DNA from: a virus
Length of the DNA stretch: 46,661 nucleotides
IMG/VR virus record: IMGVR_UViG_3300024344_000030
Span: 1-46,661 of that record
Direction: 5' to 3' (one strand)
Shown: positions 5,884-45,539 of the stretch, piece by piece
Layout: every line of letters starts with the position of its first letter
Position numbering within the stretch: the stretch's first letter is position 1
The notes under the pieces: generated by a model
What the model was told of the DNA's origin: nothing
Database searches by the model: none
Seen by the model: the letters and a program-made list of their open reading frames with translations, nothing else
Program-made: the position numbers and the translations under genes

Positions 5884-6321
5884 ATGCCGATTATTGAACA
5901 TAGTAAAAAGGTATTCATAGATGATAGAAATGATAATACATATATTGGTATAGATTTACCATTTAGAAAATCAACTGGACCCGAAGGGTATTTTGCGTCA
6001 ACTTCATTTACGATTGATGCAGTGAAAAATAATATACGGAATTTATTGAGAACTAAAAAGGGGGAGCGAATAATGCAACCTAATTTAGGTACTAATCTCG
6101 ATAAATATTTATTCGAGGTTTTTACAGATGAAACTATGCTTGCAATACAGAATGAAATTATGAATACAATTGGTACCTGGTTACCATTTGTTGAAATTAA
6201 AGATTTAAATATAGAACTCGATGAATTGAGTGGGGTAGGCAAAAACACTTTAAATATACATGTGGTATTTAATATTACACGCGACCCTAGCACACTTGAA
6301 TCGGTTAATGTAATTATTTAG
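5884..6321 (+). CDS. 25: Baseplate wedge protein, gp25 (GPW/gp25 family)
   Basis: This 145-aa protein matches the gp25 family, the small lysozyme-fold-like wedge subunit at the start of sheath polymerisation. The family signature is clear: AVKNNIRNLLRTKKGERIMQ followed by PNLGTNLDKYLFE, where the KGER and PNLGT segments are the conserved core. An N-terminal segment (residues 17-45, IGIDLPFRKSTGPEGYF) matches the usual leader in T4-like phages. The length is close to T4 gp25 (132 aa). It is followed ten bases later by gp6, its partner in the wedge, with AGGAG between them. Confidence 0.92.
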   Translation: MPIIEHSKKVFIDDRNDNTYIGIDLPFRKSTGPEGYFASTSFTIDAVKNNIRNLLRTKKGERIMQPNLGTNLDKYLFEVFTDETMLAIQNEIMNTIGTWLPFVEIKDLNIELDELSGVGKNTLNIHVVFNITRDPSTLESVNVII

Positions 6322-6331
6322 GAGCAAATCA

Positions 6332-8581
6332 ATGGCATATAATCAGCAAGATTTAAAGACAACAAATATAAATTATTTAAATAAAGATTTTGATAATATT
6401 AAACATACTCTTATGGAATATGCTAAATCATATTTTCCAAATTCATATAAAGATTTTAATGAGACATCACCTGGAATGATGTTAATTGAGATGGCTGCAT
6501 ATGTTGGAGATGTGTTGTCGTTTTACATCGACCAACAATATAAAGAAATGATGTTACCATTGGCTGAAGAGCGCCGTAATATGATTAATATTGCGAATAT
6601 GCTAGGGTATAAAGTTAATCCCATAACACCTGCATTTACTACAATGGTTGCTACACAAACTGTCCCTGTTACTACTGGTGATATTAATAATATTTTACCG
6701 GCATATGAAAATTCTGCAATGGTTATTAATAAGGGTTTAAAGGTTCGCTCAAGTGAAAACCCATCTATTGTATTTGAAACGCTAGATATGATTGATTTTA
6801 CAGTAAGTAGCTCAGCAGATGTAATACCAGAACCATATTCATTTGATGAAAATGGTGTAGTGACTGAATATAAAATTTCAAGACAGGTGCGTGCAATATC
6901 GGGTGAAACAAAGGAAACTACATTTACGGTTGGTTCACCAAAACAATATTTAAAACTAACTTTACCAGAAACTAATGTGGTTGAGATTATAGATATTAAA
7001 GACAGTGGGAATAATATGTGGTTTCAAGTGGATTATTTAGCACAAGACAAGATTATTAAAGATATACATTATACAGATGATTGGATTAATGGGGTTTACG
7101 ATGAAACATCTTTGAGGTCATCTGCATATAATGATTTATCTCCTACAACTGATATTAATAATGTTCCTGTTCCATATGTATTAAAATATTTAAAAACATC
7201 AAAGCGATTTACAACTGAAATTAATGAAGATGATACAACGAGTTTAATATTTGGTAATGGGTTATTACGAGTTGGGACGACTGGTTCGCTTGAAACTGGG
7301 TATTATAATGCAAATAATGCAGGTATAGTATTACCTGGTGAAACTGCTGAATGGCAAAAAGCTATTTCACCAACCTTAGGTTCAGTATATTCATCTTTAG
7401 GTGAAACACCATCTAATACTACATTAACAGTAACTTACAGAATAGGTGGTGGGTTAGATGCTAATGTTCCGCAAGATGATTTGAATAGTTATGAAGGTAT
7501 ATCTGTATTAAATGGTGGTATAACACCATCAGACCGAGCATTTGCAATATCAAATGATATACCAGCGCGAGGTGGGTCGAGTGGTGAAACCGTAGAAGAA
7601 ATACGACATAGAGCAAAAGCTTTCTTTGAAACGCAAAATCGTTGTGTTACGAAAGAAGATTATACGGCAAGAGTTTTAAATATGCCTGCTAAATTTGGTA
7701 ATATAGCTAAAGTATTTGTTGAGCGGACTGGTATTGCAGATTTAAGTTATTCACTTGATACAGCACAATTAGAAACTTCAATTAATACTCTAATTCAACC
7801 ACTTATGAATGTTGCGGGATTAAATGAAATAGGGGAATCACCAGAGAATATTGTTAATACATTAATTACAGGGTATGCGAACTTAGCTGCACCTGGAAAT
7901 CAATTTGGTATAAGTGATATAACACAAATGACCTCAAATTTATCTACTGCAGTAGATAATTTACATGCGCAGGCAGCTGATGTATCTGATGCTACCGGTA
8001 ATATTTCTGTATATGTTATGTGTTATGATAAAAATAAAAATTTAACATATGCACCCAATATATTAATGCAAAACATTAAAAATTATTTATCTCAATATAG
8101 AATGATTACAGATGATGTTGTTATAAAGAATGGATATATAATTAACTTTGGTGTAGTATTTGATGTTGTTGCAAATAGAAATCAAAATAAGTCCGAAGTT
8201 AAAATGCGGTGCATAGATAAAATAATAAATCATTTTGCAATTGAAAAGATGGAATATAAACAAGCAATTTATACCAGTGATTTAGAGTATGAATTAATGG
8301 GTGTCGATGGTGTGCGCGCCGTAAATCAGGTTATATTAACACAAGGTGGTGCAGAGACAAATTATACTAATTTATTAGCAACACCATTATATAGTTTAAC
8401 TGGAATTCCACCTGGAGAAGTAATTGATAATCTGAGTTCTGGGTATGGGTATAATTATAATTTTAGTCAATTTTATGGTAATACTACTTCGGTTGGTGAT
8501 GGGACAATATTACCATCAGTTGAGCCAGCTATATTTGAGTTAAAAAATCCCAATACAAATGTGAAAGGAATTGTACGATAA
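6332..8581 (+). CDS. 6: Baseplate wedge protein, gp6 (baseplate J-like)
   Basis: At 749 aa, this is the gp6 wedge subunit that dimerises and joins wedges into the baseplate ring. The N-terminus is characteristic: YAKSYFPNSYKDFNETSPG, then MLIEMAAYVGDVLSFYIDQQ (residues about 50-69), followed by the AEERRNMINIANMLGYK helix. The middle contains the baseplate J-like region with GGSSGETVEEIRHRAKAFFE and CVTKEDYTARVLNMP. The C-terminal part contains DLEYELMGVDGVRAVNQV. It is slightly longer than T4 gp6 (660 aa). A good ribosome site, AGGAG, lies at 6321-6325, and the stop overlaps the next start by one base. Confidence 0.93.
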   Translation: MAYNQQDLKTTNINYLNKDFDNIKHTLMEYAKSYFPNSYKDFNETSPGMMLIEMAAYVGDVLSFYIDQQYKEMMLPLAEERRNMINIANMLGYKVNPITPAFTTMVATQTVPVTTGDINNILPAYENSAMVINKGLKVRSSENPSIVFETLDMIDFTVSSSADVIPEPYSFDENGVVTEYKISRQVRAISGETKETTFTVGSPKQYLKLTLPETNVVEIIDIKDSGNNMWFQVDYLAQDKIIKDIHYTDDWINGVYDETSLRSSAYNDLSPTTDINNVPVPYVLKYLKTSKRFTTEINEDDTTSLIFGNGLLRVGTTGSLETGYYNANNAGIVLPGETAEWQKAISPTLGSVYSSLGETPSNTTLTVTYRIGGGLDANVPQDDLNSYEGISVLNGGITPSDRAFAISNDIPARGGSSGETVEEIRHRAKAFFETQNRCVTKEDYTARVLNMPAKFGNIAKVFVERTGIADLSYSLDTAQLETSINTLIQPLMNVAGLNEIGESPENIVNTLITGYANLAAPGNQFGISDITQMTSNLSTAVDNLHAQAADVSDATGNISVYVMCYDKNKNLTYAPNILMQNIKNYLSQYRMITDDVVIKNGYIINFGVVFDVVANRNQNKSEVKMRCIDKIINHFAIEKMEYKQAIYTSDLEYELMGVDGVRAVNQVILTQGGAETNYTNLLATPLYSLTGIPPGEVIDNLSSGYGYNYNFSQFYGNTTSVGDGTILPSVEPAIFELKNPNTNVKGIVR

Positions 8582-11763: not shown

Positions 11764-14700
11764 GTGGCTATAAATCAAAAATATATACCTACTTTTAATA
11801 CGAGGTCGCAGTGTAAAGACGACCCAAAAGATGGTGCCGGCGATTATTACCCGGAGTTAATGGTATCGGAAATACATTATTCTATCCCATCGTCTGTTGG
11901 TACTTATTCTGATTATCAGTTTGTAGAAATATATAGACCTTTCGGTTCACCGTTTTATGAAGGCTGGGATGGTAACATCTCTGGATTTAAAATGACTTTT
12001 GAAGGTACTGATGCAATTGATGGTCTTGGGTGTGGGATTAATGTCTCAGGTAAAGAATGGAATAGATTCGAGTTTCCAGACGGTACATATATACAAGAGG
12101 GTTATAGGATTGTAATTGCTAATAATGCCACAACTTATGAGAGCGAACCAGACTTAACACTTGGTGTAAATTTATTTGAATGGCAAGACGGAGACAGTTA
12201 TAATTTAAATAGATATTCTCCAATGACTATACGGATACGCAATAATTGTTGGCAAAATCCAGTATGCATACCTGCCCCAGAATATCAAAATTCAGTGGGT
12301 GTTTCTGAAACCTGTGCCGCACAATCAGTCGAATATTTTTGTGATACTGATGATAGTGCTACCGAAGAAACATGTGTAGATGGCAATTGGACGACTTATT
12401 GTGATTTTCATACTCAATGTGTATATGATGTTCCACCTGAATGCACAAATATGGGTCGCGATGACAACAATTGTGGAAATGCAGATGGATGTACAGTTAA
12501 TGTTGTACGATACCATACGGGTTGTGATGATGGTATTGAAGTTGATTCGTATGGTTGGCCAACAATATCAAGTTGTCCATATGGAAGTCATGGTGGAAAC
12601 AGTATTGAACTCAAACCTGATTATTTATTATGGAATACAGATATTAATATAGGTAGTAATTGGCAAGTAAGTACTAGCGAACATGGGACTCCGGATTCTG
12701 GTATTATATTTGGGTGCACAGACCCCCAAGCATGTAATTTTGATGCATTAGCAACCGATGACGATGGTGGGTGTGACTATAGCACTACAATACAATGTTG
12801 CTTTGATGAAGATTTAGATTTGAGTTGGACCGAAGAACAATCTTTAGAAGGTTGTTATCCGAGTTGCAGTACACTTGGGGAACATTGGTATAATTGTGAA
12901 GATTTAGACGGTAGTGAAATACTTGGGTGCACAGACGAGTGTGCAATAAACTATAACCCTGAAGCAACACAACATATTGATAATTGTGAATATCAGGTTT
13001 TTAGTGCCGGTGAAATTATCATTGATGAAATTCATTATTATCCAGTTGATGGTAACGATGCTGAATTTTTTGAAATATATAATAATTCAACTCAAGATTT
13101 AAATTTATCATGTGTATCCATAACCACTCAGGGTGCTTCTTCTGAATTTGTGAGGTTGGAATCAATCCCAGTTGGTACTCAAATTTCATCTGGTGGCCGT
13201 GTGGTTTTTGCTAATAATAGCTCAGTATATGATGGTGTCAATGGGTTATCTGTTAATCAAAATTTATTTGAAATTACGGGTAACTTAAATAACACTACTC
13301 CAATGACAATCCGGCTAAAAACTGCCGTAGGTGATATAATAAATGAGGTTCGTTATCAAGTAGCTGGTAACGAGGGCAGTGAAAATAATACTTGTTCAGG
13401 AATAGGAACAGAGTGGCCATCTAATGTGTATAATGACGATACATCAATAGTATTAGTTAACCATAGTTTGGATAATAATTGTGGTACAAATTGGAGGAGG
13501 GGTGGTGGTGGCCCAACTCCTGGATTATCAAATGAACCTAAACTTAATACTTCCCCTGCTGATTTATTTATATCAGAAATTATGTATAATCCACCAGGTG
13601 GTGGGGAACGAGAATATTTTGAATTATATAATAATCATCCAAGTATAACCTTTGATATATCTGGGTTTGAATGGGATGGCGTTAACCCTGTGAGTAGTGA
13701 TGATAATTATATAATTCCAAATGGAGTTCATATAGCACCAAATGAAGTTATTTTATTTACGCGTAAACATCCAATTGATGAATTTGATATTAGTTGGAGC
13801 GGTCAAGATAATCCATGTTTAGTGGATACACAACAATGTTACCCATACGGTGGGACACCTAATCGTACTATATGTTGTAATGGTAGATTAATTCAATTAC
13901 GAGCAACTTATGGTAATGTAGTGGCTAGGTGGAATGGTGGTACGAGTAACGCCCCATTTTTAAATGTCGATGAGACATATCCAGAAACTGATAATCTTGG
14001 TAGCTCAGTTGAATATAAAATATTCTGTGATGAAGATTTTAATTTAAATCCTGATTGTACAGAAGATTGCAAAAATGGTAGTTCATATACTAACGGTGGT
14101 AACACGGCGTGTTGGCAAGCAAGTATTGATGGTGGGAACCCTGGGTATGTTGCACAAAGCATAGTGGGTTGTATGGACCCATCATCATGCAATTACTGTG
14201 GTGACTGTACTACACACAGCCAACCCATGTGCGAATATCCAGATGTGAATTACGATTGTGATGGTAATTGTGTAATCGGAGAAGATTGTAATGGTGTATG
14301 TGGTGGTACTGCTGAATTAGATTGTGCAGGTGTATGTGACGGAAATAGTGTATATGATGCTTGTGGTGTATGTGATGGTCCGGGTGCTATATATGAATGT
14401 GGATGTTCTGAAATACCTGAAGGTACATGTGATTGTGCTGGAAATGTATTAGATGAATGTAATATATGCGGTGGAGATAATTTATCATGCTCAGGGTGTA
14501 CGGATGCGGACGCACTAAATTATGACCAGGATGCAACAATAGATGATGGTACATGTCAATATATTGATTTACCTGATTGTGAATGCTTGACGGATAGCGA
14601 TTGTGAAAATATTTGTGCAGCTGAAGGTGGGTGTGGGGAATGTGTATCAAGTGGGTGTAATGCATCATCGATGACTGGTTTATGTGAGTGTTTTACATGT

Positions 14701-17700
14701 CTTATTGAAGGTTGTACAGATATAGAAGCATGTAATTACGATTCAGAGGCTCAAGAAAATGATGGTAGCTGTGTATATGCAACAGATTTTTTCAATTGCG
14801 ATGGTGATTGTATAGTAGAAATCGATTGTTTAGGTGAATGTGGTGGAGACGCAGAAGAATTAGAATGTGGGTGCAACACGCCAATGGCAGACGGGGCATG
14901 CAATTGTGATGGGTATATAGACGATTGTGCTGGAGTCTGTGGTGGTGATGCATCAATCGATAATAACGGAGAATGTTGTAATGCAAATTTAATTGATGAT
15001 TGTGGTATTTGTAATGGAGATAGTTCATCGTGTGCACCATCTGGTGATATTTTAATTGAATCCACTTTAACTTTTGGTTTGTCACAACATCAATTCACAT
15101 TTACACCACTCGGTGACAGTCCTACTGGTGCATGGTCTGCACCATCTGATGGTGGATATATAGTTGAATATCTTTTAGAAATTGATAGAAAGACAAGTGA
15201 TGACCAAACTGGACCGAGTGGGTTAATGACTGTCAATAGGACATTCGATTCGGAGACAGAAATATTAGATTTTGAGCAGAATGGGTATTTTAAAGAATTT
15301 ACTATACAATCTGACCCTTTACCGTACACATATTTTGTAAAAATAACTGCAACTGATAATAATGGTATTATTGGGTCACATCAAAAAATATTTATAATAG
15401 AAAATATAATTGAAACTGCACAGTCCGTTAGCTTATCATATTTACCATATCAAGGTATTTGGTTGTATGGCAATTATGACCCCATTGCTATTCCATTATA
15501 TCAAACGCGAGCTTCAATGACAAATTATGATGTCGATAGACGACCGCAGCTGGGAACTTTTTATTATATCGATGATAATTTCAATGTACCGTGGGTGCAA
15601 AAGATAAATGAAATATCATTATCTTATGATAATCCCGAAGATTTTTATTCTGGTACTGAATTTGACTTAGACGATATTGGTATGTTGCAATCACAATCTG
15701 GTAAAATTATTACACCATGGAAATCATTAATTCAATCTGATTTATCTCCTGATATTGATGCAAGAACTGTCCGGAGTTTAAATAAAAATGTTAATCAAAC
15801 TGTATATAATTATTTTGATGAACTTATACAGCCAGATGAATATGATATAAATTCAGCACCGGGTGAAGTACAACTATATGCATATTTTAGGCGTTCCAGT
15901 GAACTTTCAGAAAATTTAAACGAGGTTTCTTGTGGTGGTGTTGGGGATTCAGGTCACATTTTAGTTTCCGACGCACATTGCACAAAAGCATCCGATTGTA
16001 ACACACCCGATGGGAGTTCATTTGGAATCGAGGGTCAAAATGTGACTCCAAGTGATTGTTGTATATTCCATTATGGTGGGTATCCAGGTGATTATACTAT
16101 TGGCGAGCCATGTGGGTCGTTTGGGGTGTATTATGGATATTATTGTAATTATGTACCAACCGATTTAACGGGAGAAACACCTGATGTTAATGTTTATGAT
16201 ATTTTTAATGATAGACCACATGTTAATTTTGATTATATAAATAGAGATGGAATTGTATGTAAAATGGATTCAGATTGGACTACATCATATTTTACACAGG
16301 CATATATTGGAGTAATAGATTGGGGCGATTCAGTTACTGCTATACCAGAATATGCAGACAAACCACTCGAATTAAAATCTGATACTATAATAAAACATAA
16401 GTATGAAAAACCTGGGGTATATGAAATTACGGGTTTGATGTTTATTGTTGGTGGGATATTAATCGAAGGGTCGCGGCATAAACAAGGTGTTTTAGAAAGC
16501 TTTAAATTCACTACACGCATAAATTTATATGAAAACAATTTATATACCTCACCTTTCATTGATGTTAATGCATTTGAACCTATTATTGGTGGTATATCTA
16601 AAAATAGTATTTATTATAAGACAATAAAACGACAATTGGGATTAATGCCGGGCTTAGACCAACCAATTGATTTACATTTTGCGTATGAATTTGATAGGTT
16701 AGAAACGGGTGGCGCATTAGTAAATATTGAAAATAGAGTATCAGGTTCGAGTGCACCATCATTACCATTTTTAGATGATTATATGGGGCCTACTTATGAT
16801 TTATCTGATGCTTCAGGTGCACCAACTGAGAGTGCAACATCTAATAATTTAATACATAATGGTAGATTTAATGACCAAGGTATTTTAGGAGAATTCCCTG
16901 GAGAATTGGATATTGGACAAATTAGATATTTTAATTCTGGTAAATATAATATATGGGATATGCTTGGGTTTATAAATACACCATTTGAACAATCGTATGG
17001 AATCAATGATGCATCAATAACGCAAGCTGTATTATTCACAGCTGCACATAATCAGCGAAGCTATAGACCATCAATAGATTCAACTCATTCGAGTGATTTA
17101 TATACAGGTTCAATTGGTAGAAAGATGCATGATTTTTTCGGGTGTCCTGTTATATATGCTAAATATAGAACTGATGACCCTAATTTTTATCATTATGTTC
17201 CAGACCCAACTGATACTCCTGCATTTGAGCCTATAAAGGGGAAGATGATGCCAATGAAGCGAGCAGTATTAGACTATCTGGAAACTCACCCTAATATTAA
17301 ATTAGTAATTGATTTACATGGTGCTGCAAATTGGAGATACTTTGCCGTTGATTTAGGGTTAACTGGCCCAAAAAATACACCTGGACCATTTTTAACAGAT
17401 GAGGGTGAATGGGAAGAAGTGGAGTCTCCTGAATTACAATATCCGCAATATAATGTATTTGATGATGTAAGTAAATATGCACCATCAATTAAAACTACAT
17501 TTGGAACACAAGAATTATTGCGTTACATATATGATGCATTAATTGATAATGGTGTTGGTGCTGGGTGTCCAACTTCACAGGATGAAATAGATACATCCAC
17601 TTGTATTAATCATGATAACGATGGATTTGGACCAACATTCAATCATTCATTCACAGCCGGAAACCAACCTACTGGCACTGCATGGGTAACACGCGATGCA

Positions 17701-18867
17701 CCGTCAGAAATAGTGACTAACCCAGATAAATTTGTAGATGCAGTGCAGATGGAATTCAGTAGAGAGTATAGACGATTTGGAAATACCGAAGATAATGACC
17801 CGGCTGCACTGAAAGCAATAGTTGATATAGTAAACTTTACTAATGAGCATTATGGATATATTGATGCAATCAAACCTAAACCAACGGATATTGAATTTGA
17901 AAATTGGGGACCATGGATAAAAAATGATTGGGACACGCAATTTGACCCGACAAAGGATACAGTCCTTAGTGCAGACACAGTTCCAATGCTAAATCACCCA
18001 GGGAATCCGGGTCATTCGAGATATTGGAAAAACATTATACCAAAAGATACTAACATTTTTACAGGACGGGAGGGGATTGTAGCATATAATATTGGACAAA
18101 CGATTATCGGTTCGGGTAGTTATACATTGATGTTTAGTGATTTACCAGAAACTGGTGTGACGGTTAATGATATTTTTTCAGCATTACTTGAATATACACA
18201 TATGGTAGATTTTATTTTATATACTCCAACGGGTGAATATTTTACTGAATTGAGTGAATACCCATCTGTTAATAATGATGATGGGTGGCGAATAACTATA
18301 GCATCTAATGTTAGTATTAGATTTGATTTTAGTTATTATTTTAATATTTATACAGAGGATGAACTTGGTTCTATACAAGAGCTGTATTTTGATGATTATT
18401 CATTATTAACTGGTGATTTATCGTCAAATCAAAACTGGACACCAAAAATAATAACAGAGAATGTTGGGGAGCAACAATCCACAGAATATATAAATTATTA
18501 TCAAAATTTTTATTATCCAGTATTACCTAAAATAGATTTTTTAGGTAGGTTTTCTGAAAATCGTTTGCAAACTTTTAATTCAAGCCCATTATTCCCGTGG
18601 GGTTATCCTGGCATCGATTGGAATGAATACGACCCATATGCTAGTATAACAAATGAAAAAATTGTAAATAATAATTTAAATATTGATATGACTTTTTCTG
18701 AAATTGATGATAATAACCAATTAATTGATATTGGTGGTCGGAATATATTTGGGCAGTTAATTACTGATTATAAAGTTATGTTTGACCATGAAACTGGTGA
18801 ACCATATGCAAATGATTTTAAAATATACCCTAAATTAGGTGAAGATGAATATGAAAAACCATATTAA
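11764..18867 (+). CDS. Giant multi-domain virion adhesin: lamin-tail domains, Cys-rich repeats, PKD-like and amidohydrolase-like domains
   Basis: This 2367-aa protein starts at GTG after a strong GGGGGG site (11755-11760). Three lamin-tail-like domains lie near residues 28-165 (LMVSEIHY), 412-530 (IIIDEIHYYP) and 597-740 (LFISEIMYNPP then EYFELYNN). Cys-rich repeats of the GCTDxxACNY type lie at 317, 388, 802 (degenerate), 911 and 983. Runs of DCNGVCGG and DCAGVC units occur near 830-930 and 1010-1080. A PKD-like domain at about 1515-1565 shows WGDS and HKYEKPGVY. Residues about 1755-2005 resemble N-formylglutamate amidohydrolases: H1762 in AAHNQRSY, IDLHG with H1852, and QMEFSREYR with E1997. 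The C-terminal 350 residues are unrecognised. It is probably a distal tail adhesin or fibre with an enzymatic module. No signal peptide is visible. Confidence 0.7.
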   Translation: MAINQKYIPTFNTRSQCKDDPKDGAGDYYPELMVSEIHYSIPSSVGTYSDYQFVEIYRPFGSPFYEGWDGNISGFKMTFEGTDAIDGLGCGINVSGKEWNRFEFPDGTYIQEGYRIVIANNATTYESEPDLTLGVNLFEWQDGDSYNLNRYSPMTIRIRNNCWQNPVCIPAPEYQNSVGVSETCAAQSVEYFCDTDDSATEETCVDGNWTTYCDFHTQCVYDVPPECTNMGRDDNNCGNADGCTVNVVRYHTGCDDGIEVDSYGWPTISSCPYGSHGGNSIELKPDYLLWNTDINIGSNWQVSTSEHGTPDSGIIFGCTDPQACNFDALATDDDGGCDYSTTIQCCFDEDLDLSWTEEQSLEGCYPSCSTLGEHWYNCEDLDGSEILGCTDECAINYNPEATQHIDNCEYQVFSAGEIIIDEIHYYPVDGNDAEFFEIYNNSTQDLNLSCVSITTQGASSEFVRLESIPVGTQISSGGRVVFANNSSVYDGVNGLSVNQNLFEITGNLNNTTPMTIRLKTAVGDIINEVRYQVAGNEGSENNTCSGIGTEWPSNVYNDDTSIVLVNHSLDNNCGTNWRRGGGGPTPGLSNEPKLNTSPADLFISEIMYNPPGGGEREYFELYNNHPSITFDISGFEWDGVNPVSSDDNYIIPNGVHIAPNEVILFTRKHPIDEFDISWSGQDNPCLVDTQQCYPYGGTPNRTICCNGRLIQLRATYGNVVARWNGGTSNAPFLNVDETYPETDNLGSSVEYKIFCDEDFNLNPDCTEDCKNGSSYTNGGNTACWQASIDGGNPGYVAQSIVGCMDPSSCNYCGDCTTHSQPMCEYPDVNYDCDGNCVIGEDCNGVCGGTAELDCAGVCDGNSVYDACGVCDGPGAIYECGCSEIPEGTCDCAGNVLDECNICGGDNLSCSGCTDADALNYDQDATIDDGTCQYIDLPDCECLTDSDCENICAAEGGCGECVSSGCNASSMTGLCECFTCLIEGCTDIEACNYDSEAQENDGSCVYATDFFNCDGDCIVEIDCLGECGGDAEELECGCNTPMADGACNCDGYIDDCAGVCGGDASIDNNGECCNANLIDDCGICNGDSSSCAPSGDILIESTLTFGLSQHQFTFTPLGDSPTGAWSAPSDGGYIVEYLLEIDRKTSDDQTGPSGLMTVNRTFDSETEILDFEQNGYFKEFTIQSDPLPYTYFVKITATDNNGIIGSHQKIFIIENIIETAQSVSLSYLPYQGIWLYGNYDPIAIPLYQTRASMTNYDVDRRPQLGTFYYIDDNFNVPWVQKINEISLSYDNPEDFYSGTEFDLDDIGMLQSQSGKIITPWKSLIQSDLSPDIDARTVRSLNKNVNQTVYNYFDELIQPDEYDINSAPGEVQLYAYFRRSSELSENLNEVSCGGVGDSGHILVSDAHCTKASDCNTPDGSSFGIEGQNVTPSDCCIFHYGGYPGDYTIGEPCGSFGVYYGYYCNYVPTDLTGETPDVNVYDIFNDRPHVNFDYINRDGIVCKMDSDWTTSYFTQAYIGVIDWGDSVTAIPEYADKPLELKSDTIIKHKYEKPGVYEITGLMFIVGGILIEGSRHKQGVLESFKFTTRINLYENNLYTSPFIDVNAFEPIIGGISKNSIYYKTIKRQLGLMPGLDQPIDLHFAYEFDRLETGGALVNIENRVSGSSAPSLPFLDDYMGPTYDLSDASGAPTESATSNNLIHNGRFNDQGILGEFPGELDIGQIRYFNSGKYNIWDMLGFINTPFEQSYGINDASITQAVLFTAAHNQRSYRPSIDSTHSSDLYTGSIGRKMHDFFGCPVIYAKYRTDDPNFYHYVPDPTDTPAFEPIKGKMMPMKRAVLDYLETHPNIKLVIDLHGAANWRYFAVDLGLTGPKNTPGPFLTDEGEWEEVESPELQYPQYNVFDDVSKYAPSIKTTFGTQELLRYIYDALIDNGVGAGCPTSQDEIDTSTCINHDNDGFGPTFNHSFTAGNQPTGTAWVTRDAPSEIVTNPDKFVDAVQMEFSREYRRFGNTEDNDPAALKAIVDIVNFTNEHYGYIDAIKPKPTDIEFENWGPWIKNDWDTQFDPTKDTVLSADTVPMLNHPGNPGHSRYWKNIIPKDTNIFTGREGIVAYNIGQTIIGSGSYTLMFSDLPETGVTVNDIFSALLEYTHMVDFILYTPTGEYFTELSEYPSVNNDDGWRITIASNVSIRFDFSYYFNIYTEDELGSIQELYFDDYSLLTGDLSSNQNWTPKIITENVGEQQSTEYINYYQNFYYPVLPKIDFLGRFSENRLQTFNSSPLFPWGYPGIDWNEYDPYASITNEKIVNNNLNIDMTFSEIDDNNQLIDIGGRNIFGQLITDYKVMFDHETGEPYANDFKIYPKLGEDEYEKPY

Positions 18868-18882
18868 TATGAGAATTAAACT

Positions 18883-21800
18883 ATGTCAATAAACGATTAT
18901 ACAAATAACAGAAGTTGTGCAGGAACCTGTTCTACATTTCAAGGTCAAACTCAATCATGCGTTGGTACTGATATGTCGTGTGGTTGCCCAGATGGCGCAT
19001 GGGATTTTGTTGATTGTTACATTGCACCAGATGTTGACCCATGTGATAATATTTCGTGTCCAGCTGGACAGGAGTGTAATAACGGCGCCTGTGTAGAAAT
19101 TATAGGGGGGTGTTTAGATACTGGTATTAATAGTACCCAATCATTACACCCATTTGGTTTATGTGACAATGCAGTTTATGGGACAGATTCATACTGTGCA
19201 TGCAATTCGAGTACATCATTTACTTTGGATTGTAACGGTGATGAACCATCTGTATCATGTGGGCACGATAATGATTGCTATGATTTAGGGATGGAATTTG
19301 CTGCATGTAGTGTGAATGGAAAGTGCATCGATATATCATGTTGTGAATATCCATATTATAGTGGGCCAGTCACTGTACCTGAAATTGATATAAACGGCCC
19401 ACCTGATTTTTATTTGCATTATCAGTGTGAACTAAATAATGCAGATAATTATTGCATATATGACTTAAACTGTAACGGTGGGTGTAGCCCTCTTGAATTG
19501 CCATCGGATGATTGTGGGGTTTGTGGGGGAAGCTGTTTTGAATATGATGATTGCAATTGTGATTGTCCAGCTGGATATGATTGTTTTGGTGAATGTGGTG
19601 GGTCTGCTGAAATGGATGTGTGTGGGGTGTGTGACCCATGTAATAACGGAACGGCATTTGCAGGGTGTGATTTGTGGAATATGTCTTGTACAGGTTGCAC
19701 AGACCCAAATGCAACAAATTATGATTTAAATAATATTAATGCATGTACCAATGATACACACTCAGATGAGTGCTTGCAGAATGGTATAATTGTTGATAAT
19801 TGCTGCTGTATGTATTCTGATGATTATATAATATATACATGCACAGATATAAATGCAATGAATTATAATATATTATGTGAAGAAACAATAATATTAACAG
19901 AACCAAACAATTTTGATTTAGAATTATGTATGGACAATTGTGAAGTTGTATATTGGGACTGTATATTTGGTCCAGATGAAACACCACATGGGCAGTGTAT
20001 GCTTTCAAGGGATGTGTGTGAAGATGAGTGTGAAACGAACTCTAACATTGAAACTATTACTATTGAAATTGACTCACCATATACATGCTATGATGATGGT
20101 TCATGTAGATACCCAGTAAATTTACCAGAATTTACATATATAATTTTACAAACTGAACCATCTGTAAATGACTATGGTCAATACTTTTATTCGTCTAACC
20201 ATTCTGAGTGGGGTGAAATGACTGGCCTTGATTCAATTGAATCCATAGATGATTTATCAACTACTATGACTCCAAATATTGATTTTGGTGGGGCAGAATC
20301 TACTACTGGTACGCAGATAGCACCTATTAATTTATCTAATGTACCAAATGAACCAGTTTATAGCTGGATGTTACCAAGATTTTTTAGTCATCTCAGTCCC
20401 TTTCAGTATTTAGTAAAATTTCATACTGTTAATATTTATGAGCGTGGGTTAACTTTAGGTTTAAATGCACCAAGTAGTTGGTTATATGAAAATTTTCAAG
20501 TGGATGATTCTTGGCCAGTTAATCGACCATTTACTTGTTATGATGATGATACAGGGTTAGAGGGGTGGCCTGGACAGTTACCATGGTTTGGATACCCCAA
20601 GGGCACTATATCCGCTCCGATAAATTGTACTGATGATTTTTATTGGGCACACCCAACGGGTGATGATTGTACGGATAATCCCGATGCATGTGGTGCATAT
20701 AAAAGTTTAGGATTGAGCTTTTATGCACTAACAGAAGAACAAAATGAGTTTATGTTTGCAGAAGATGAAATAAATTATGAGGTATTTCCAAAACCAGTTT
20801 ATGAATTTATATTAGATGCGAATGGTCGCCGCGCATTTGTTATTAGTTTAGATGGTGACGAGCCAGTAGAATGTATTGGTGAAAATTCAATTGGGTGCAT
20901 CCCAATATTTGAAGAAGGTGGAGATGAACAACATTATCCATCAGTAGTCACTGAGGATATTCAATCCTTAGGGATTAGTTTTTATGCATTCGCTGAGCAA
21001 GATGAATCTGAAATTTTAGCTCCAATAGTAGAATGTTATAATATGGACCCGGATGCATCGGTTCTTGCAATCCATCCAGGTGTTGTAGGTTATGCACCAA
21101 AAGGGCAGTGCCCAATCAATAGGGACCTTTGGGTCGATATGTATGCAGCTGCATGGAGTACTATTTATACCGATATTGTAGTAACCATGAGTGGTGGTAC
21201 CGGTAATGTAACTGATGGTGGATTTAATCTTGATGTAATTCAATCTTATTGGACAGACGACTTTAATGCAGCTGCAGATTATTTTGTAGAGGACGATGTT
21301 GAGGGTAACATAGTCTTTTATGCATACCCAAATAGAACACTGGAACATGATATAATTCGACCAATATCACATGCATATATAGGAACAACTGACACTAATA
21401 TTAAATTTCTAAATAAATATTATAACATTAATGATGTAGATTATTTATATACATCTGCACCAAATATTGTAAATATATCATTTGATATTACAGATGATTA
21501 TGCTGCACAATTGATAACATCCAATGATATTATTGAAAATTATGAACCATTTCGTAATAATAATAAAGATTTTGTATTTATGATTGTGGCATGGGATGGT
21601 GTAAATTTGGATGCAGAATCTATAAAAACTGAATATTTAAGTAAAAAAACTAATGGGGAAATTAGTTTAAATAGTGAATTGATTGGTGCAAGTGATTTAT
21701 ATACATACCAATTTTTACGAGATAGTAATAATAATATTAATTATTTTTCACAACAATATTCTTCATCTGGTGTTAAAATAGTAAAAGCTATTTTTGCAGA

Positions 21801-22542
21801 AATAGATTTATTAGTTGCCGATGGTGATATTGGGCAATTTAATCGTGAAAAAATAGTTACTATTAAGCTAAATTTAAATACAGATGAAATTTATATTGAG
21901 GATTTTCAGGATATAGGTGGACCAGATTTTGTTTATTTACCATGGCCATATCCAGGTAGTACACCAATTATTAATGGATTTACACCGAATAGTAAATATA
22001 TGAAATCAATTGAAAATATTTTACAGTCCGATGTTTTTGATGGAACGGAGCTAATTGAACAATCTTTAGCCCAGCGGGCAATCAATAATGATGAATTAGG
22101 TGATTTTATTAATAAAATAGATATTGAACAGGTTAGGGTATTCAATACAGGGAGATATGATATAGGAGCTTTATTACAGATTGAAAATTATTATACTAAT
22201 ATATTAGACCCATCGAAAGAAAAATTGTACACATTCTATCCACATACTGACATCGGCCCGTTTGATTTTTGGGATGGCATATATAATCAATTTCCAAGGG
22301 AAAGTTCGGTTGGTAATATATTTATAAATGATATGATAGATGAAAACATAAAATCTGAATGTATTTTAGAGCTCAACTGTGGTGAGTTTGATACGCGTGT
22401 GATACGAGATTCAAGTGGTAGTGGTAATAAAGGTATCGTGGTTGGTGATTTTCATGTGGAAAAATTAATTACAGGTCAGCCTGCTACAAGGAGAGGTCCA
22501 ATAGATGTACCAAAAAAAGATAAAAAGAATAGAGCATTATAA
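18883..22542 (+). CDS. Large Cys-rich virion protein, related to its neighbour
   Basis: This is a 1219-aa protein. Residues about 5-400 are cysteine-rich: an EGF-like segment CPAGQECNNGACVE, DCGVCGGSC and DCFGECGGSAEMDVCGVC units, and one GCTDPNATNYD repeat at residue 271. The middle holds an internal duplication (SLGLSFYALTEEQ at 608 and SLGISFYAFAEQ at 695). The C-terminal third contains a module also found in the preceding giant protein: PIINGFTPNSKYMKSI followed by IDIEQVRVFNTGRYDI, matching DIGQIRYFNSGKYNI there. The tail is basic (PKKDKKNRAL). Its stop overlaps the next start by one base. A structural or adhesin role in the same tail assembly is inferred. The many cysteines imply disulfides or metal binding, unusual for a protein folded in the bacterial cytoplasm. 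Confidence 0.65.
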   Translation: MSINDYTNNRSCAGTCSTFQGQTQSCVGTDMSCGCPDGAWDFVDCYIAPDVDPCDNISCPAGQECNNGACVEIIGGCLDTGINSTQSLHPFGLCDNAVYGTDSYCACNSSTSFTLDCNGDEPSVSCGHDNDCYDLGMEFAACSVNGKCIDISCCEYPYYSGPVTVPEIDINGPPDFYLHYQCELNNADNYCIYDLNCNGGCSPLELPSDDCGVCGGSCFEYDDCNCDCPAGYDCFGECGGSAEMDVCGVCDPCNNGTAFAGCDLWNMSCTGCTDPNATNYDLNNINACTNDTHSDECLQNGIIVDNCCCMYSDDYIIYTCTDINAMNYNILCEETIILTEPNNFDLELCMDNCEVVYWDCIFGPDETPHGQCMLSRDVCEDECETNSNIETITIEIDSPYTCYDDGSCRYPVNLPEFTYIILQTEPSVNDYGQYFYSSNHSEWGEMTGLDSIESIDDLSTTMTPNIDFGGAESTTGTQIAPINLSNVPNEPVYSWMLPRFFSHLSPFQYLVKFHTVNIYERGLTLGLNAPSSWLYENFQVDDSWPVNRPFTCYDDDTGLEGWPGQLPWFGYPKGTISAPINCTDDFYWAHPTGDDCTDNPDACGAYKSLGLSFYALTEEQNEFMFAEDEINYEVFPKPVYEFILDANGRRAFVISLDGDEPVECIGENSIGCIPIFEEGGDEQHYPSVVTEDIQSLGISFYAFAEQDESEILAPIVECYNMDPDASVLAIHPGVVGYAPKGQCPINRDLWVDMYAAAWSTIYTDIVVTMSGGTGNVTDGGFNLDVIQSYWTDDFNAAADYFVEDDVEGNIVFYAYPNRTLEHDIIRPISHAYIGTTDTNIKFLNKYYNINDVDYLYTSAPNIVNISFDITDDYAAQLITSNDIIENYEPFRNNNKDFVFMIVAWDGVNLDAESIKTEYLSKKTNGEISLNSELIGASDLYTYQFLRDSNNNINYFSQQYSSSGVKIVKAIFAEIDLLVADGDIGQFNREKIVTIKLNLNTDEIYIEDFQDIGGPDFVYLPWPYPGSTPIINGFTPNSKYMKSIENILQSDVFDGTELIEQSLAQRAINNDELGDFINKIDIEQVRVFNTGRYDIGALLQIENYYTNILDPSKEKLYTFYPHTDIGPFDFWDGIYNQFPRESSVGNIFINDMIDENIKSECILELNCGEFDTRVIRDSSGSGNKGIVVGDFHVEKLITGQPATRRGPIDVPKKDKKNRAL

Positions 22543-25500
22543 TGGGTGAAACAGTATCTGAATTTGTTCCAAATCAATTAGATTTAATTTCATCTGGTCA
22601 AACTACATATATTTTTGATGAATTGTTAGGTGATTATGTTAGGGTGGCTGTATTTGATGACAGTGAAACTTGGGTTGTAGGGTACGAATACCAAACAAAT
22701 ATCGATTTTAATGGTGATTATATTGAATATACTATTCCACCTGATGCACAGGAAGTAATTCCATATCCTAACCCTGATACTCATATGCTATATGAACACG
22801 GGTTAGTTTCATCAGATGATTTAATACCACCTCAAGATGGTGATTCGGTTGCGCTTCAAGGGGGTAACCCTGAGACTGCTCAAGCATTTTGTCAATATTT
22901 GGGGCATGATGCATACTTCGCGACAGGGGTAAATTCAACAACAGAGATACCTGCAGGTACCACAGTAGCTACTTTTAGTTTAAATGATGGGAATTGGACA
23001 ACTACTATTTTACAAAATTCATCTCTAATATTTTCACAAATAGAATGTATTGACTACAATAATACTTATCCAACACCCGTTGACGGTTCATCTCCGCAGG
23101 TAAATATTTATAGAAGTGGCGAAAGTATATATTTTAAACCTAATGAAATTTTATCTGAAAACCAAACTGCAGGTGGTAATTATCAATTAAAATTTGATTT
23201 TTTAAGGAATTTCTTTGACGATTGGTATAATAATTTTACAATTTATACTGCAAGCACTGGGTTTGATATAAATATCCCTATCAACGAGGATGCATCTTTA
23301 ATAGAAAGTGATATTGATGATTTAGTTACAACTGGTAACATATCACAGGGTGATGCAGATGAATATATGGATTTAGTAACTTTTATTGATGATGTTTATA
23401 TGGGTGACCCTAATTTTTATATAAAACAAATATCAGCATCGCGTAAAGAAATTCGTTTATATGGTAGATATGGTGATAATACTAATTTATATTTTGATGA
23501 TATGTTTATGAGTGAATTAGTTAATATTTTGGGTTCTTTAGAAGATGATTGTGGAACAGATGGTGCACCAAATTGTTATGGGTTGAATTATGTATTAAAC
23601 ATTGGGCAAGGAAAAATCATAACGATAAACAATTATGCATTTGACCAAATCACAGACCCAGAACACCCATCATTAATTTTACGGTTGAATACACCATTAC
23701 CAGATAATATTTTTGAATTATATGCTGTGAATATTGAGCGAAAATTATTAGATTCACAAACGGAAAATATAATATATGTTAGTAATATTTCATCAATGAC
23801 GGTTGGTGAAAGTTTAAAACCTGATTTTGATTTTAATTCTGAATTATATAATGATACTATAACAGATACATATCAAAATCAATTACAACTGAATGCCAGT
23901 GCATCAATTAATCAGGAGACATTTGATGAAATCGCATTAGAAAATGCCAATGAATATAAAAATTTAAATATAGATTTTTCCAATTTCAAAAATCATGTAT
24001 TTTTTGGTTCTGCAGCATCAAAATTGAGCAATTTTAAAGCCAAAGTTGTAACGATAGAAAATCACTTACGAGGAATTTCATCATCATTAGCATTAACTGG
24101 AAGTCATGTTGAAGAAAGACGAAAAACCTTATTTAATGATATTACAAAAGTTAAAATGGGTTTTACACCATATGAAAAATTTCTATATTTTGATAATCAA
24201 ATTACTAGCACCGGGTCGGCACCAGGAATAGGACCAAATTTAATCGATTCCACCCCGATTTCAGAACGCTCACCAACAACTATTTTACCTCAATATGAGG
24301 GAATAAAATTAGTTTATAAACATACTTCTAAAAACGCGGGCCAATTGCAAGATATTTATTTATTTGCAAAAAAATATCGTGTGGAAGATGCACCATTTTT
24401 TAATACTGATAAACCTATTTATTTATCATTTTTAATAAAAGGAACAGATGGTATAGCAACATCGGCTACTGGAACTTCGGATGGATTGAAGTGGACTAAC
24501 ATGAATCAATATAATTCATTACCATCAAGTTCATTTGGTGGCAATGTGATATTAAATCCATCTATAAAGCATAATGAATATAGAAGGCATATATATGTTG
24601 CATCACAATCATATTGGAGGCCATCACAGACTGGAGATATAGGTGGTGATGTTGCCAACATTTATGATTGGAGGACAGCATCATCTCAATTTGAGATATT
24701 ATCAGGGTCAAATATCACAGGGTCATATCCTATATACGATTCGAGTGGGCAAATAGGTGAATTATTATATCCAACTATGTATAATACTTCTTCCCAATAT
24801 GGCTATTTGGATACAATTACTGAACGGTCTGGTTCAATATTACCATCTGGTGAATTATTTAATATCAGGTATCATTCGGGGTCAAATACGGCGGGGGCAG
24901 CAACATCGTCATTTACAACTGATATATTTATTACAACTAAAAATCCAAAATCAGTTCCTCCATTTTCGTTATTATATCCCACTGGTTCAAGTGAATGGAT
25001 ATCGTGGTATGATGAACAATATACTTCAGCGTCAAATTATGATGCTGATAATATACATAGTTTGAATAATACATTACCGACTTGGGTTGAAGATGGGGCA
25101 GATACGGCTGTACTAAAAGATTTTGTGCATATGTGGGGCGAACAGTTTGATTTGACTAAAAATCATATTGATAATTTTTCAAATATTCATAAGCGAAAAT
25201 ATACTAAATTTGATTCAGTTCCAAATAATTTATTGCCGATTATAGGTAATAATTTAGGGTGGGAATTCATTAATCCATATTCGAGTAGTTTATCTGAATA
25301 TTTTTTAAATGCAACATATGGACAGCATAATGTGAGTCATGTAGTTGATGATGTTTGGAATAGAGTGATGAATAATCTGATTTATATTTATAAAACAAAA
25401 GGTACACAAAATAGTATTGGTGCCCTATTAAATTCATACGGAATACCCCCCGACTTAATTAAAATTAGGGAAACTGTAGCAGGTGACGGGAATGCACTCG

Positions 25501-28500
25501 CAACTAATATTCCAATTGATGAGGGGGTCGAAGGTTCGGGAATAGATGGAGTTTTTTATACTAAACCAGATTGGTTATCTGGACTCATGTTTGGACCCAA
25601 TCACGGTACATTAAAATTACCATGGAATGCCTTTAAGGCTGCAGGAAATGCAATAGAATTTTTAATTAAGCCGCAACCATTACGGCGACGACAGCATGCA
25701 ATAAATACACAAACCTTAATGTTAAGTAGTGGAAGTGATTCGCAGCGGTTATGGGATTTGAGGTTAATACCATCATCAAGTTATAATAATTTTGCAAAAG
25801 TAGAATTTAGGTTAAATAATTCACCATATGGTTCTGGTAGTATAAGCGATAATGCAGTTTCAATGTCCACATCGTATATTAAATTTAAGGATTATGATTA
25901 TTCTAATATTTTATTACAGAGTATGACTGCTAGCGTTTCAGGGACTGGTGTTCAAGATTATAGATTATATATAGGTAGTTTAGATACTAAGTTTGATACA
26001 CGCATTACTAATTATCAAATTGTGTCAATGAGTGTAAGTGGTGGGTTTGCTGCAGTCACTGCATCCAATGCAGGTGATGGTAAAGGTGATTTGGCATATC
26101 AAGCTAATTTTAATTTCATGGGAACGGGTAGTTATATAACTGGTAGTAATAATACAGCTATATCTGGGAATCTGATAATAGGTGATACCTTTTCAGGGTC
26201 AATTGCAGAAGTTAGATTATGGGATTCAACATTAAGTTCATCTAAATTTAGACTTCATATAATGGATAAAACCAGTGTAGTTGGAAATAATATAAATAGT
26301 TATAAAGATGATTTAACATATAGATTTAAATTAAATGAAAATTATACATCCGGGTCAAATAATAGGCGAGTTATAAATAACATGGATAATAGAATGAATA
26401 CAGATTATACTCGTACTGTACCATATTCAGAAAATAAATTGAAATATAGTGTAACTAAAACAATTTTATATAAATTTGCACCTAAATCAAATCAAGAAAT
26501 CACAATAACAGATAATAAAATTATTATTAAGCCTGATGAAATTTTTGTTAATCCACTGTCTCCATATCATTCATCTGTTCAAAAAATAGAAAATACATTG
26601 GCCGCAACTAGGATACCAACGAATAAAATAAAAATATCTAAATCACCCTCAGCTGTGATAGATGAATATATATCATCGCAGATAGCAGGAATGGATGCTG
26701 AAAGTAAATATGCTGACCCGCGGAATATATACTCAGGTTCGTATGATGAGTTAGATACATTTAGGGAAGATGTGTTAAAAGGTGTGGTAGTTGATGTTAA
26801 TAGATATATTAATGATAATAGTAAAATCTTTAATAATTCTTTTATTAACTCTATAAAAAACTTATTACCTGCTAAAAGTGAAATTGATGAAATTGGTGTG
26901 GTAATAGAATCAGACATGTTACATAAATCTAAATTCCCAAGTCAAACAATAAAAATTGACCCTAAATATAATAAATTTGATTTTGCTGTTGGTTATTTAG
27001 ATGATAATATGATTACAGGGAAATGGGTAGAAAAGCGAACAAATGCCGATAAACTAAAAATAAAGGACCAAATTGAATTGGTTGGTAAATTACCATTAAT
27101 TTCACCTGCAAATATAGATATTACAAAGTTACATTATTCGGGAATAGATAGTTCATTGTTACCAAATATCGGGAATTTTATTTTAAGTGGTAGCAGTTTA
27201 ACAAAAGTTACATCAAAATTATATTTTAGACCAATCGGGAATATAGATGTATATGATGAAAATAATATTAAATTTACTAATAAATTATTAAATCAACATG
27301 TAGCTAATATATCATTTGAGTCTGGTAGTTACAATGCCTTTAAATTGAATCAATCTGTTCAAACTGTACATGATATAATAATTGATAGCACATCTGCACT
27401 GAATATAGTATCTAAATTAATAGATACTAAATATACATCAATTATATTGAGTGGTAGCAATCTGTTACCAGCAATACATATGCACGATGTTAATCCAAAT
27501 CCTGTATCAGCACTTAGGATGATGATGAGTGGAAGTGGTGCCTTTAAATTAAATTCTAAATTAATTGATGACAAAAAAAATACATTATTTTTTAGTGGTA
27601 GTATATTCAATACAAGTATGAAAAAAGTAAATGAGCATTTAATTATATTGAGTGGTAGTGACACCTTTAAATTAAATTCTAAATTTATTTCGGATAAAAA
27701 TAATACATTATTTTTTAGTGGTAGCATAGCTAACCCTGATATGGAAAAAATAAATGAACATTTAATCATATTGAGTGGCAGCGATACTTTTAAATTAAAC
27801 TCTAAATTAATTGATGACAAAAATAATACATTATTTTTTAGTGGTAGTATAGCTAACCCTAATATGAAAAAAATAAATGAACATTTAATCATATTGAGTG
27901 GTAGTGACACCTTTAAATTAAATTCTAAATTAATTGATGACAAGAAAAATACATTATTTTTTAGTGGTAGCATAGCTAACCCTGATATGGAGCATATAAA
28001 AATTAAGTCATTTATGATGAGTGGGAGCAGTAAAGCCGTTAAATTGACTTCTGTTTATATGGGTCAATATTCAGCAAGTACTGCACCATTTAGAACAAAG
28101 GGATACTATTCACGGTTACCGTGGGAAGATGAATATGGTAATGAAGTTAAAGTATTATCTGGTAGATACAGATTAAATACAAAAGATAAAAACTTAGATA
28201 TTAATTGGGATAGTGGTGTATATAATAAAACATTTGTATATTATACGATAGGGGATATTGAATATGTATCCCAGTCAGCAAGGATACCAAAATCACCTGG
28301 GGGAGTTGATGGTTTTGAAGGTAGATTATATACAGGATATGAATTTACAACTGAATATAGTAATCATAATTATTTTAAGCGTAGAATGTTTGTGGATGAA
28401 GGAAAGGGATATGGTTATAGGGGGTATATAAATGGTGAATCAGACCATCGGATTGATGCAAGACCTATGGGTAGGACAGCCTATTTTGCAACATCATCAA

Positions 28501-28811
28501 CGAATGAAATTTTATACCCTGATAATCACTATATACATTTCCCTACTTCAAAGGAGGGGTCTAAGTTATTTTACATTGGGACTCAATTTGAAAGTGGTTC
28601 ATTCAGTACTGTGTATCCCGTGAATGAAGAATTTGACCCCCCATTTAAACCATGGGACCCGTTGCCAAGTGTTCCATTTTATACTTATAAAGTAGATGGT
28701 GCAGGTGCAAATGTTAAATTGGAGGTAGTAAATAAAAATACTATACAAAATAAAAAAAATAATAAATTATTTATTCCAAAAAGTCCAAATGGTGGTGGTG
28801 AGATAAAATAA
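22542..28811 (+). CDS. Giant structural protein with LamG-like domain and tandem 41-residue repeats
   Basis: This 2089-aa protein has no cysteine-rich region. The first 950 residues contain many beta-rich stretches with SGS/TGS motifs. Residues about 950-980 show TKGTQNSIGALLNSYGIPPD, a segment I associate with large structural proteins of marine phages, from memory. A LamG-like domain follows at about 1020-1240 (AIEFLIKPQPLRR to GSIAEVRLWDSTL). Near the C-terminus four copies of a 41-residue unit (core DTFKLNSKLI, then LFFSGSIANPDM) occupy residues about 1662-1825, preceded by decayed copies with LSGS motifs. The last 250 residues are Tyr- and Gly-rich. It overlaps its upstream neighbour by one base and ends the long structural transcript before a new promoter-like motif. 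It is probably a long fibre or tail-surface protein. Confidence 0.65.
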   Translation: MGETVSEFVPNQLDLISSGQTTYIFDELLGDYVRVAVFDDSETWVVGYEYQTNIDFNGDYIEYTIPPDAQEVIPYPNPDTHMLYEHGLVSSDDLIPPQDGDSVALQGGNPETAQAFCQYLGHDAYFATGVNSTTEIPAGTTVATFSLNDGNWTTTILQNSSLIFSQIECIDYNNTYPTPVDGSSPQVNIYRSGESIYFKPNEILSENQTAGGNYQLKFDFLRNFFDDWYNNFTIYTASTGFDINIPINEDASLIESDIDDLVTTGNISQGDADEYMDLVTFIDDVYMGDPNFYIKQISASRKEIRLYGRYGDNTNLYFDDMFMSELVNILGSLEDDCGTDGAPNCYGLNYVLNIGQGKIITINNYAFDQITDPEHPSLILRLNTPLPDNIFELYAVNIERKLLDSQTENIIYVSNISSMTVGESLKPDFDFNSELYNDTITDTYQNQLQLNASASINQETFDEIALENANEYKNLNIDFSNFKNHVFFGSAASKLSNFKAKVVTIENHLRGISSSLALTGSHVEERRKTLFNDITKVKMGFTPYEKFLYFDNQITSTGSAPGIGPNLIDSTPISERSPTTILPQYEGIKLVYKHTSKNAGQLQDIYLFAKKYRVEDAPFFNTDKPIYLSFLIKGTDGIATSATGTSDGLKWTNMNQYNSLPSSSFGGNVILNPSIKHNEYRRHIYVASQSYWRPSQTGDIGGDVANIYDWRTASSQFEILSGSNITGSYPIYDSSGQIGELLYPTMYNTSSQYGYLDTITERSGSILPSGELFNIRYHSGSNTAGAATSSFTTDIFITTKNPKSVPPFSLLYPTGSSEWISWYDEQYTSASNYDADNIHSLNNTLPTWVEDGADTAVLKDFVHMWGEQFDLTKNHIDNFSNIHKRKYTKFDSVPNNLLPIIGNNLGWEFINPYSSSLSEYFLNATYGQHNVSHVVDDVWNRVMNNLIYIYKTKGTQNSIGALLNSYGIPPDLIKIRETVAGDGNALATNIPIDEGVEGSGIDGVFYTKPDWLSGLMFGPNHGTLKLPWNAFKAAGNAIEFLIKPQPLRRRQHAINTQTLMLSSGSDSQRLWDLRLIPSSSYNNFAKVEFRLNNSPYGSGSISDNAVSMSTSYIKFKDYDYSNILLQSMTASVSGTGVQDYRLYIGSLDTKFDTRITNYQIVSMSVSGGFAAVTASNAGDGKGDLAYQANFNFMGTGSYITGSNNTAISGNLIIGDTFSGSIAEVRLWDSTLSSSKFRLHIMDKTSVVGNNINSYKDDLTYRFKLNENYTSGSNNRRVINNMDNRMNTDYTRTVPYSENKLKYSVTKTILYKFAPKSNQEITITDNKIIIKPDEIFVNPLSPYHSSVQKIENTLAATRIPTNKIKISKSPSAVIDEYISSQIAGMDAESKYADPRNIYSGSYDELDTFREDVLKGVVVDVNRYINDNSKIFNNSFINSIKNLLPAKSEIDEIGVVIESDMLHKSKFPSQTIKIDPKYNKFDFAVGYLDDNMITGKWVEKRTNADKLKIKDQIELVGKLPLISPANIDITKLHYSGIDSSLLPNIGNFILSGSSLTKVTSKLYFRPIGNIDVYDENNIKFTNKLLNQHVANISFESGSYNAFKLNQSVQTVHDIIIDSTSALNIVSKLIDTKYTSIILSGSNLLPAIHMHDVNPNPVSALRMMMSGSGAFKLNSKLIDDKKNTLFFSGSIFNTSMKKVNEHLIILSGSDTFKLNSKFISDKNNTLFFSGSIANPDMEKINEHLIILSGSDTFKLNSKLIDDKNNTLFFSGSIANPNMKKINEHLIILSGSDTFKLNSKLIDDKKNTLFFSGSIANPDMEHIKIKSFMMSGSSKAVKLTSVYMGQYSASTAPFRTKGYYSRLPWEDEYGNEVKVLSGRYRLNTKDKNLDINWDSGVYNKTFVYYTIGDIEYVSQSARIPKSPGGVDGFEGRLYTGYEFTTEYSNHNYFKRRMFVDEGKGYGYRGYINGESDHRIDARPMGRTAYFATSSTNEILYPDNHYIHFPTSKEGSKLFYIGTQFESGSFSTVYPVNEEFDPPFKPWDPLPSVPFYTYKVDGAGANVKLEVVNKNTIQNKKNNKLFIPKSPNGGGEIK
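27525..28016 (+). repeat. Four tandem 123-bp in-frame repeats
   Basis: Units begin at 27525, 27648, 27771 and 27894, each exactly 123 bases (41 codons), and share long identical stretches such as CATTATTTTTTAGTGGTAG. A fifth, truncated start follows at 28017. The first unit and the upstream region (from about 27170) are more diverged. The high nucleotide identity of the inner units suggests recent duplication or ongoing gene conversion. Confidence 0.95.
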
Positions 28812-45520: not shown

Positions 45521-45539
45521 TTAAACTAAAAGACTTAAT
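45517..45539 (+). repeat. Start-codon repeat, copy 1
   Basis: These 23 bases, beginning ATGATTAAACT and ending GACTTAAT, match 46290-46312 with one mismatch. Each copy contains both the TGA stop of the gene before and the ATG of the gene after. Confidence 0.85.

Follow-up and report, generated by a model that had tools for sequence, protein, structure and literature searches.

A divergent PF05013-type amidohydrolase-like domain inserted in a variable baseplate/fibre-type protein of marine T4-like viruses

Introduction

Depolymerases carried on phage tails and amide hydrolases encoded by phages, PghP for instance, are each known on their own (PMC6966330, PMC4497714). In PghP and PghL, zinc is bound by His, Glu, and His, and a distant Glu is catalytic (PMC6506827). 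We analyzed the DNA of a virus record of 46.7 kb with a T4-like gene set, in the following called the window. An earlier note had claimed that a giant tail protein encoded in the window contains a domain resembling N-formylglutamate amidohydrolases, which could strip a peptide-containing surface layer. We compared this domain with viral and cellular relatives and with known enzyme families.

Results

The giant gene and its surroundings

The T4-like genes of the window code for PhoH-like, gp25-like, gp6-like, RuvC-like resolvase, primase, and SbcC-like proteins, and a match to a late sigma factor is weak. The gene order is gp25, gp6, two ORFs, and then the giant gene of 2367 codons (Table 1). 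As the gp25- and gp6-like wedge genes are located shortly before it, we placed the giant gene in the tail block, consistent with the earlier description of its product as a T4-like tail protein. In the region 11764-15048, one phage protein combines Lamin tail domains with Cys-rich GCTDxxACN repeats of a bacterial type, and similar Cys-rich repeats are present in several related viruses.

The giant protein is followed by two more very large proteins of 1219 and 2089 aa (18883-22542 and 22542-28811), both without a Pfam match; PHROGs gave just one weak match of unknown function for the 2089-aa protein. For a 1146-aa protein (32171-35611), Pfam detects Dockerin type I repeats at E 8e-10, a feature unusual for a phage, and a dockerin-like GDLNGDGGYNVLDIV stretch is also present on a Marinimicrobial contig (L211). 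In a 1073-aa ORF (37001-40222), residues 8-226 match a metallo-phosphoesterase family and residues 277-1070 match SbcC, so that it resembles a fused version of gp47 and gp46, subunits that are separate in T4. Finally, a 258-aa protein (45517-46293) with matches to Zeta_toxin and AAA_33 is perhaps a polynucleotide-kinase-like P-loop enzyme.

Table 1. Features of the baseplate region and the giant gene in the window (aa numbering of the 2367-aa protein)
Feature	Position	Strand	Basis or occurrence
gp25-like baseplate wedge gene	5884-6321	+	PHROGs 1.8e-24
gp6-like baseplate wedge gene	6332-8581	+	PHROGs 2.2e-22
Giant ORF, baseplate/fibre-type, carrier of the domain	11764..18867	+	2367 aa, GTG start
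Lamin tail domain (PF00932), better of two stretches	13003..13356	+	Pfam E 1.5e-23, whole protein
Cys-rich GCxDxxACNY-type repeats, limits approximate	14143..15048	+	sequence
Conserved scaffold before insert: PKD-like stretch, IGGISKNSIYYKTIKR, LDIGQIRYF...MLGF; variable stretch inside	16306..16971	+	common to L016, L027, many viral loci
Inserted segment, about aa 1737-2081	16972..18006	+	missing from L016 and L027
Predicted amidohydrolase domain, about aa 1750-2032	17011..17859	+	alignments with L101, L102, L132; PF05013-type profile matches
H1762, predicted metal ligand 1; AAHN (APHS in L101/L102/L132)	17047..17049	+	40/42 of PF05013-type set
D1778, predicted metal ligand 2; D-L-Y-T-G	17095..17097	+	invariant in phages and L132; 38/42 PF05013-type
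D1805-P-N1807, LDxNR counterpart minus Arg	17176..17184	+	joint alignment
IDLHG 1849-1853; H1852, predicted metal ligand 3	17308..17322	+	38/42 PF05013-type
FTAGNQ 1963-1968, in place of [YF]xGGY loop of PF05013-type set	17650..17667	+	joint alignment
E1997 (VDAVQMEFSREYR), predicted general base	17752..17754	+	38/42 PF05013-type
Scaffold after insert, around RYWKNIIP	18007..18084	+	relatives
Second, unrelated insert, about aa 2108-2243	18085..18492	+	no match in related loci compared
C-terminal scaffold, YYPVLP to end	18499..18864	+	relatives

Relatives of the domain in viruses

When the window protein or its domain alone was compared with Pfam, PHROGs, NCBIfam, and the PDB, and by tblastn with phages, no useful match to the segment emerged; its best PDB matches were leader-protease fragments, which we took as chance. 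As these searches linked the window sequence alone to no relevant family or structure and to no relative among phages, the claim was tested via relatives. Viral loci were sampled with a gp6 search, which gave 44, and with a scaffold profile, which gave 72. Two of these 72 loci, L101 and L102, encode proteins of 3107 and 3103 aa, respectively, that contain the segment at the same scaffold site as in the window, and phmmer with the window domain matched them at 1e-23 and 5e-25, respectively, with an alignment covering the whole stretch. Further scans of viral_contigs revealed no fourth virus with the domain.

The motifs HNQRSY from H1762, IDLHG with H1852, and QMEFSREYR from Q1995 with E1997 are positioned as the earlier note had claimed. 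The domain is also found where that note had located it (16990-17790, residues about 1755-2005), although its limits reach slightly past these coordinates (Table 1). The first motif is a canonical APHS in L101 and L102 (APHSPVTLRP or APHSPRTLRP) and AAHN in the window, and the counterpart of IDLHG in both relatives is LVID[LF]HGA. Among others, H1762, D1778, D1805, N1807, D1850, H1852, G1853, Q1995, and E1997 are invariant in the three viruses. The L101 and L102 domains carry large loop insertions. In the comparison of L101 with L102 by a simple counting method, the domain is 73% conserved with a dN/dS of about 0.24, and the whole protein is 56% conserved with a dN/dS of about 0.39; the domain is under purifying selection, and its constraint is stronger than that on the remaining protein, a pattern that a functional part should show.

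The domain as an insert of a conserved scaffold

Some of the 44 loci from the gp6 search encode a protein that corresponds to the C-terminal part of the giant one, with the PKD-like stretch and the motifs YYKTIKR, YWKNIIP, and YYPVLP, but lacks the segment, and L016 and L027 have only about 10-15 residues between the motifs that flank the insertion site. Sequence comparison thus identifies the domain as an insertion in a conserved scaffold, located between its MLGF and RYWKNIIP motifs, and we found no named family for this scaffold. The domain is present in three of the 59 scaffold proteins of our tree, and the other 56 have little or unrelated sequence at this site. The nearest neighbor of the window in the tree is L091 (support 91/61), whose insert differs, and the window itself lies on a long branch. 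Between LGF and the C-terminal profile, the scaffold proteins have from about 9 to >800 aa, a distance that also takes in the second insert site, located past YWKNIIP. In the scaffold proteins L045-L116, two highly variable insert sites lie between LGF and YYPVLP, with cargo from none to >800 aa. When 33 inserts were scanned, five gave a CBM60 match and one a CBM_4_9 match.

A cellular homologue

For a piece of the Cys-rich repeats in the giant protein, the best matches in cells came from Neomarinimicrobiota and the next from Bacteroidota. A homologue of the domain itself is also encoded in one of these Marinimicrobial genomes. The protein that carries it, L132, matched the three-phage profile at 2e-22, and a profile comparison of the window with L132 alone gave 98% probability, a firm link of the window to this family. 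L132 has 468 aa, a lipoprotein-like start, and Cys-rich repeats of the GCMDKTACNY type ahead of the domain, and its motifs are APHSQRNFR, RDKYTGAIA, DDPNYYD, IIDLHGF, and DAIQMEVESDYR. The contig is 7.5 kb long, and further genes on it look cellular. As the L132 genome gave the sole strong match among the 245 genomes searched in its phylum, the subfamily is rare; a sample of 297 Bacteroidota genomes contained no close homologue.

Family assignment

A Pfam match to PF05013 was absent for the window, L101, L102, and L132 even at an E-value of 10, below the Pfam gathering score. For profile comparisons, PF05013 members were gathered from Bacteroidota, and their exported-type subgroup, once enlarged, comprised 42 sequences of Bacteroidota and Marinimicrobia. 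Using hhalign, the query profile of the three phage domains and L132 reached a score of 36 with the first three exported PF05013-type members (231 columns), 39 with the deep 42-sequence set (105 columns), 54 with the first three together with other PF05013 members, and 58 with an actinobacterial plasmid family, with reversed or column-shuffled templates reaching at most 20 as controls. Accepted PF05013 subgroups scored 41-43 against the same deep set, and the profile-profile relation of the phage/L132 subfamily is at that level. Scores against the cytosolic-type PF05013 subgroups alone were weaker (16-17). The phage profile gave nothing against 2q7s alone, and it took L132 and the secreted members of PF05013 to reveal the link. 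The single-sequence profile of the window scored 23-29 against PF05013 templates, close to its own control maximum of 21-26, and the basis of the assignment to PF05013 is therefore the family rather than the window.

PghP (PF05908) was rejected as the family, with hhalign scores of 13-17 against a two-sequence template and no Pfam match, and so was Peptidase M14 (PF00246) with scores of 18-20. The proposed resemblance to N-formylglutamate amidohydrolases thus holds at the superfamily level, where profile scores were far above the controls, whereas the comparison with the PghP and M14 profiles gave no match. Judged by these profile comparisons, the segment is a homologue within the PF05013 superfamily and represents a divergent subfamily, known so far from three marine T4-like viruses and L132.

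Two side aspects emerged from these comparisons. Of the 244 Marinimicrobial genomes searched for it, 43 encode an exported-type PF05013-like protein (L177-L206, L212, L213), and two of these proteins have lipoprotein-like starts. An unnamed family on Arthrobacter-type plasmids (L142:2399-3061, L159-L162) is profile-related to the domain; its second metal His is replaced by N, V, or R, and the family is possibly inactive.

Predicted active site and fold

The predicted metal triad H1762, D1778, and H1852 and the putative catalytic E1997 are all kept in the sequences of the three viruses and L132. Of the 42 PF05013-type sequences, at least 38 keep each of the three residues named in the earlier note (H1762, H1852, and E1997). 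D1778, which was absent from that list, is part of a D-x-[YF]-T motif and is likely the second metal ligand, in support of a metal site. The role of E1997 as a base is predicted by analogy with Glu165 of PghP/PghL. Two PF05908 members have E-A-G-T shortly past the first His, a parallel at the motif level only.

Two elements of the nearest PF05013 members, an Arg that follows DxN and a [YF]xGGY loop, are missing in the phage/L132 subfamily, and the window has DPNFYH and FTAGNQ instead. As both elements are replaced, the family name does not give the substrate, which is probably other than N-formylglutamate.

Pyrrolidone carboxyl peptidases and nucleoside phosphorylases have a phosphorylase/hydrolase-like fold, a fold class common to Zn-exopeptidases. 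An AlphaFold2 model generated from three sequences was weak (mean pLDDT 43, pTM 0.50). A fold search with this weak model gave pyrrolidone carboxyl peptidases as best matches, nucleoside phosphorylases, and the carboxypeptidase Csd4 at rank 49, which would be compatible with a fold of the Zn-exopeptidase-type class without proving it.

Discussion

With somewhat better than even confidence, we favor the view that a metallo-amidohydrolase of the PF05013 superfamily is an exchangeable cargo of a baseplate/fibre scaffold and acts from the virion on the host surface. H1762, D1778, and H1852 would hold a divalent metal, E1997 would activate water, and the domain would hydrolyze an amide bond. As the domain is part of a baseplate/fibre-type protein, action from the virion on the host surface is the most likely mode, presumably during adsorption and on an amide-containing surface component. 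Candidate targets may be an amino-acid polymer, a peptide, an N-acylated glycan, or a surface protein, and the host would belong to the Neomarinimicrobiota. The fibre-borne role and the stripping of a peptide-containing layer, as proposed in the earlier note, are likewise inferences.

The main rival is that the domain has kept its fold but only binds a surface ligand without cutting. The CBM60 and CBM_4_9 matches among inserts at the same site in relatives, the loss of the second His in the related actinobacterial plasmid family, which indicates that members can decay, and the altered first motif (AAHN) of the window would all fit such a binding function. However, the four predicted catalytic residues are retained in all three viruses and L132, and the constraint on the domain exceeds that on the rest of the protein, so that we regard mere binding as unlikely. 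An active amidohydrolase directed against peptidoglycan or another inner barrier during genome entry, or against the virus's own proteins, rather than against an outer layer, appears to us slightly less probable still. This superfamily cuts amide bonds, the cell-wall carboxypeptidase Csd4 appeared at rank 49 with the weak model, and T4-like baseplates carry a lysozyme (gp5), all of which could point inward; yet the carrier protein is variable and probably peripheral, its other inserts resemble surface binders, and the cellular homologue L132 is a lipoprotein-like exported protein. A chance likeness, in which an unrelated structural domain happens to contain three short motifs, in line with the lack of a direct library match for the window alone, is largely refuted and very improbable, because L101, L102, and L132 carry the segment with the same motifs and the joint-profile scores are well above those of shuffled controls.

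Beyond the favored view of an exchangeable amidohydrolase cargo, we only tentatively suggest that T4-like phages of Marinimicrobia acquired a host-type secreted amidohydrolase as a swappable tail cargo that strips an amide-linked surface layer; we would sooner doubt this than rely on it. In this view, the Cys-rich partner repeats were possibly taken up together with the amidohydrolase.

If the domain is active, metallo-amidohydrolases would be a further class among the enzymes possibly borne on phage tails, and the finding would point to an amide-containing surface target on a host that probably belongs to an abundant uncultured marine phylum with little-known surface chemistry. A scaffold with such an exchangeable site for inserts is also a handle for mining further cargo enzymes and binding modules from metagenomes. 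In the literature searched, which left many subscription papers outside, we found no description of a PF05013-type family in a phage tail protein.

Among known systems, PF05013 (structures 2q7s and 2odf) is the closest, in particular its secreted or lipoprotein-like members from Bacteroidota and Marinimicrobia (L155-L157, L165-L206, L212, L213). The domain shares with it the profile alignment and the motif order H...D-x-x-T...DxN...IDLHG...QxE, but PF05013 members are separate enzymes, whereas the domain is part of a giant phage protein and below Pfam detection. L132 has the same domain subfamily with similar Cys-rich GCxDxxACNY repeats in front, but it is a stand-alone exported cellular protein without the phage scaffold. 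PghP and PghL (PF05908) are also phage-encoded amide hydrolases of the same broad Zn-carboxypeptidase-like group. Their metal site consists of H, E, and H with a distant Glu (PMC6506827), whereas the predicted ligands of our domain are H, D, and H; the first two ligands are 5 residues apart in PghP/PghL and, as predicted, 16 in the domain. Moreover, PghP/PghL is described as a separate small enzyme, in contrast to the domain inside a tail protein. Virion-associated depolymerases are similar in that an enzyme domain is proposed to be located on the tail and to act at adsorption (PMC6966330). As in these depolymerases, the domain belongs to a tail-region protein, being in frame within the 2367-aa ORF and likewise in L101 and L102. 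The depolymerases reviewed in PMC6966330 are glycan-active tailspikes, whereas the locus described here encodes a predicted metallo-amidohydrolase in a baseplate-region protein of T4-like viruses.
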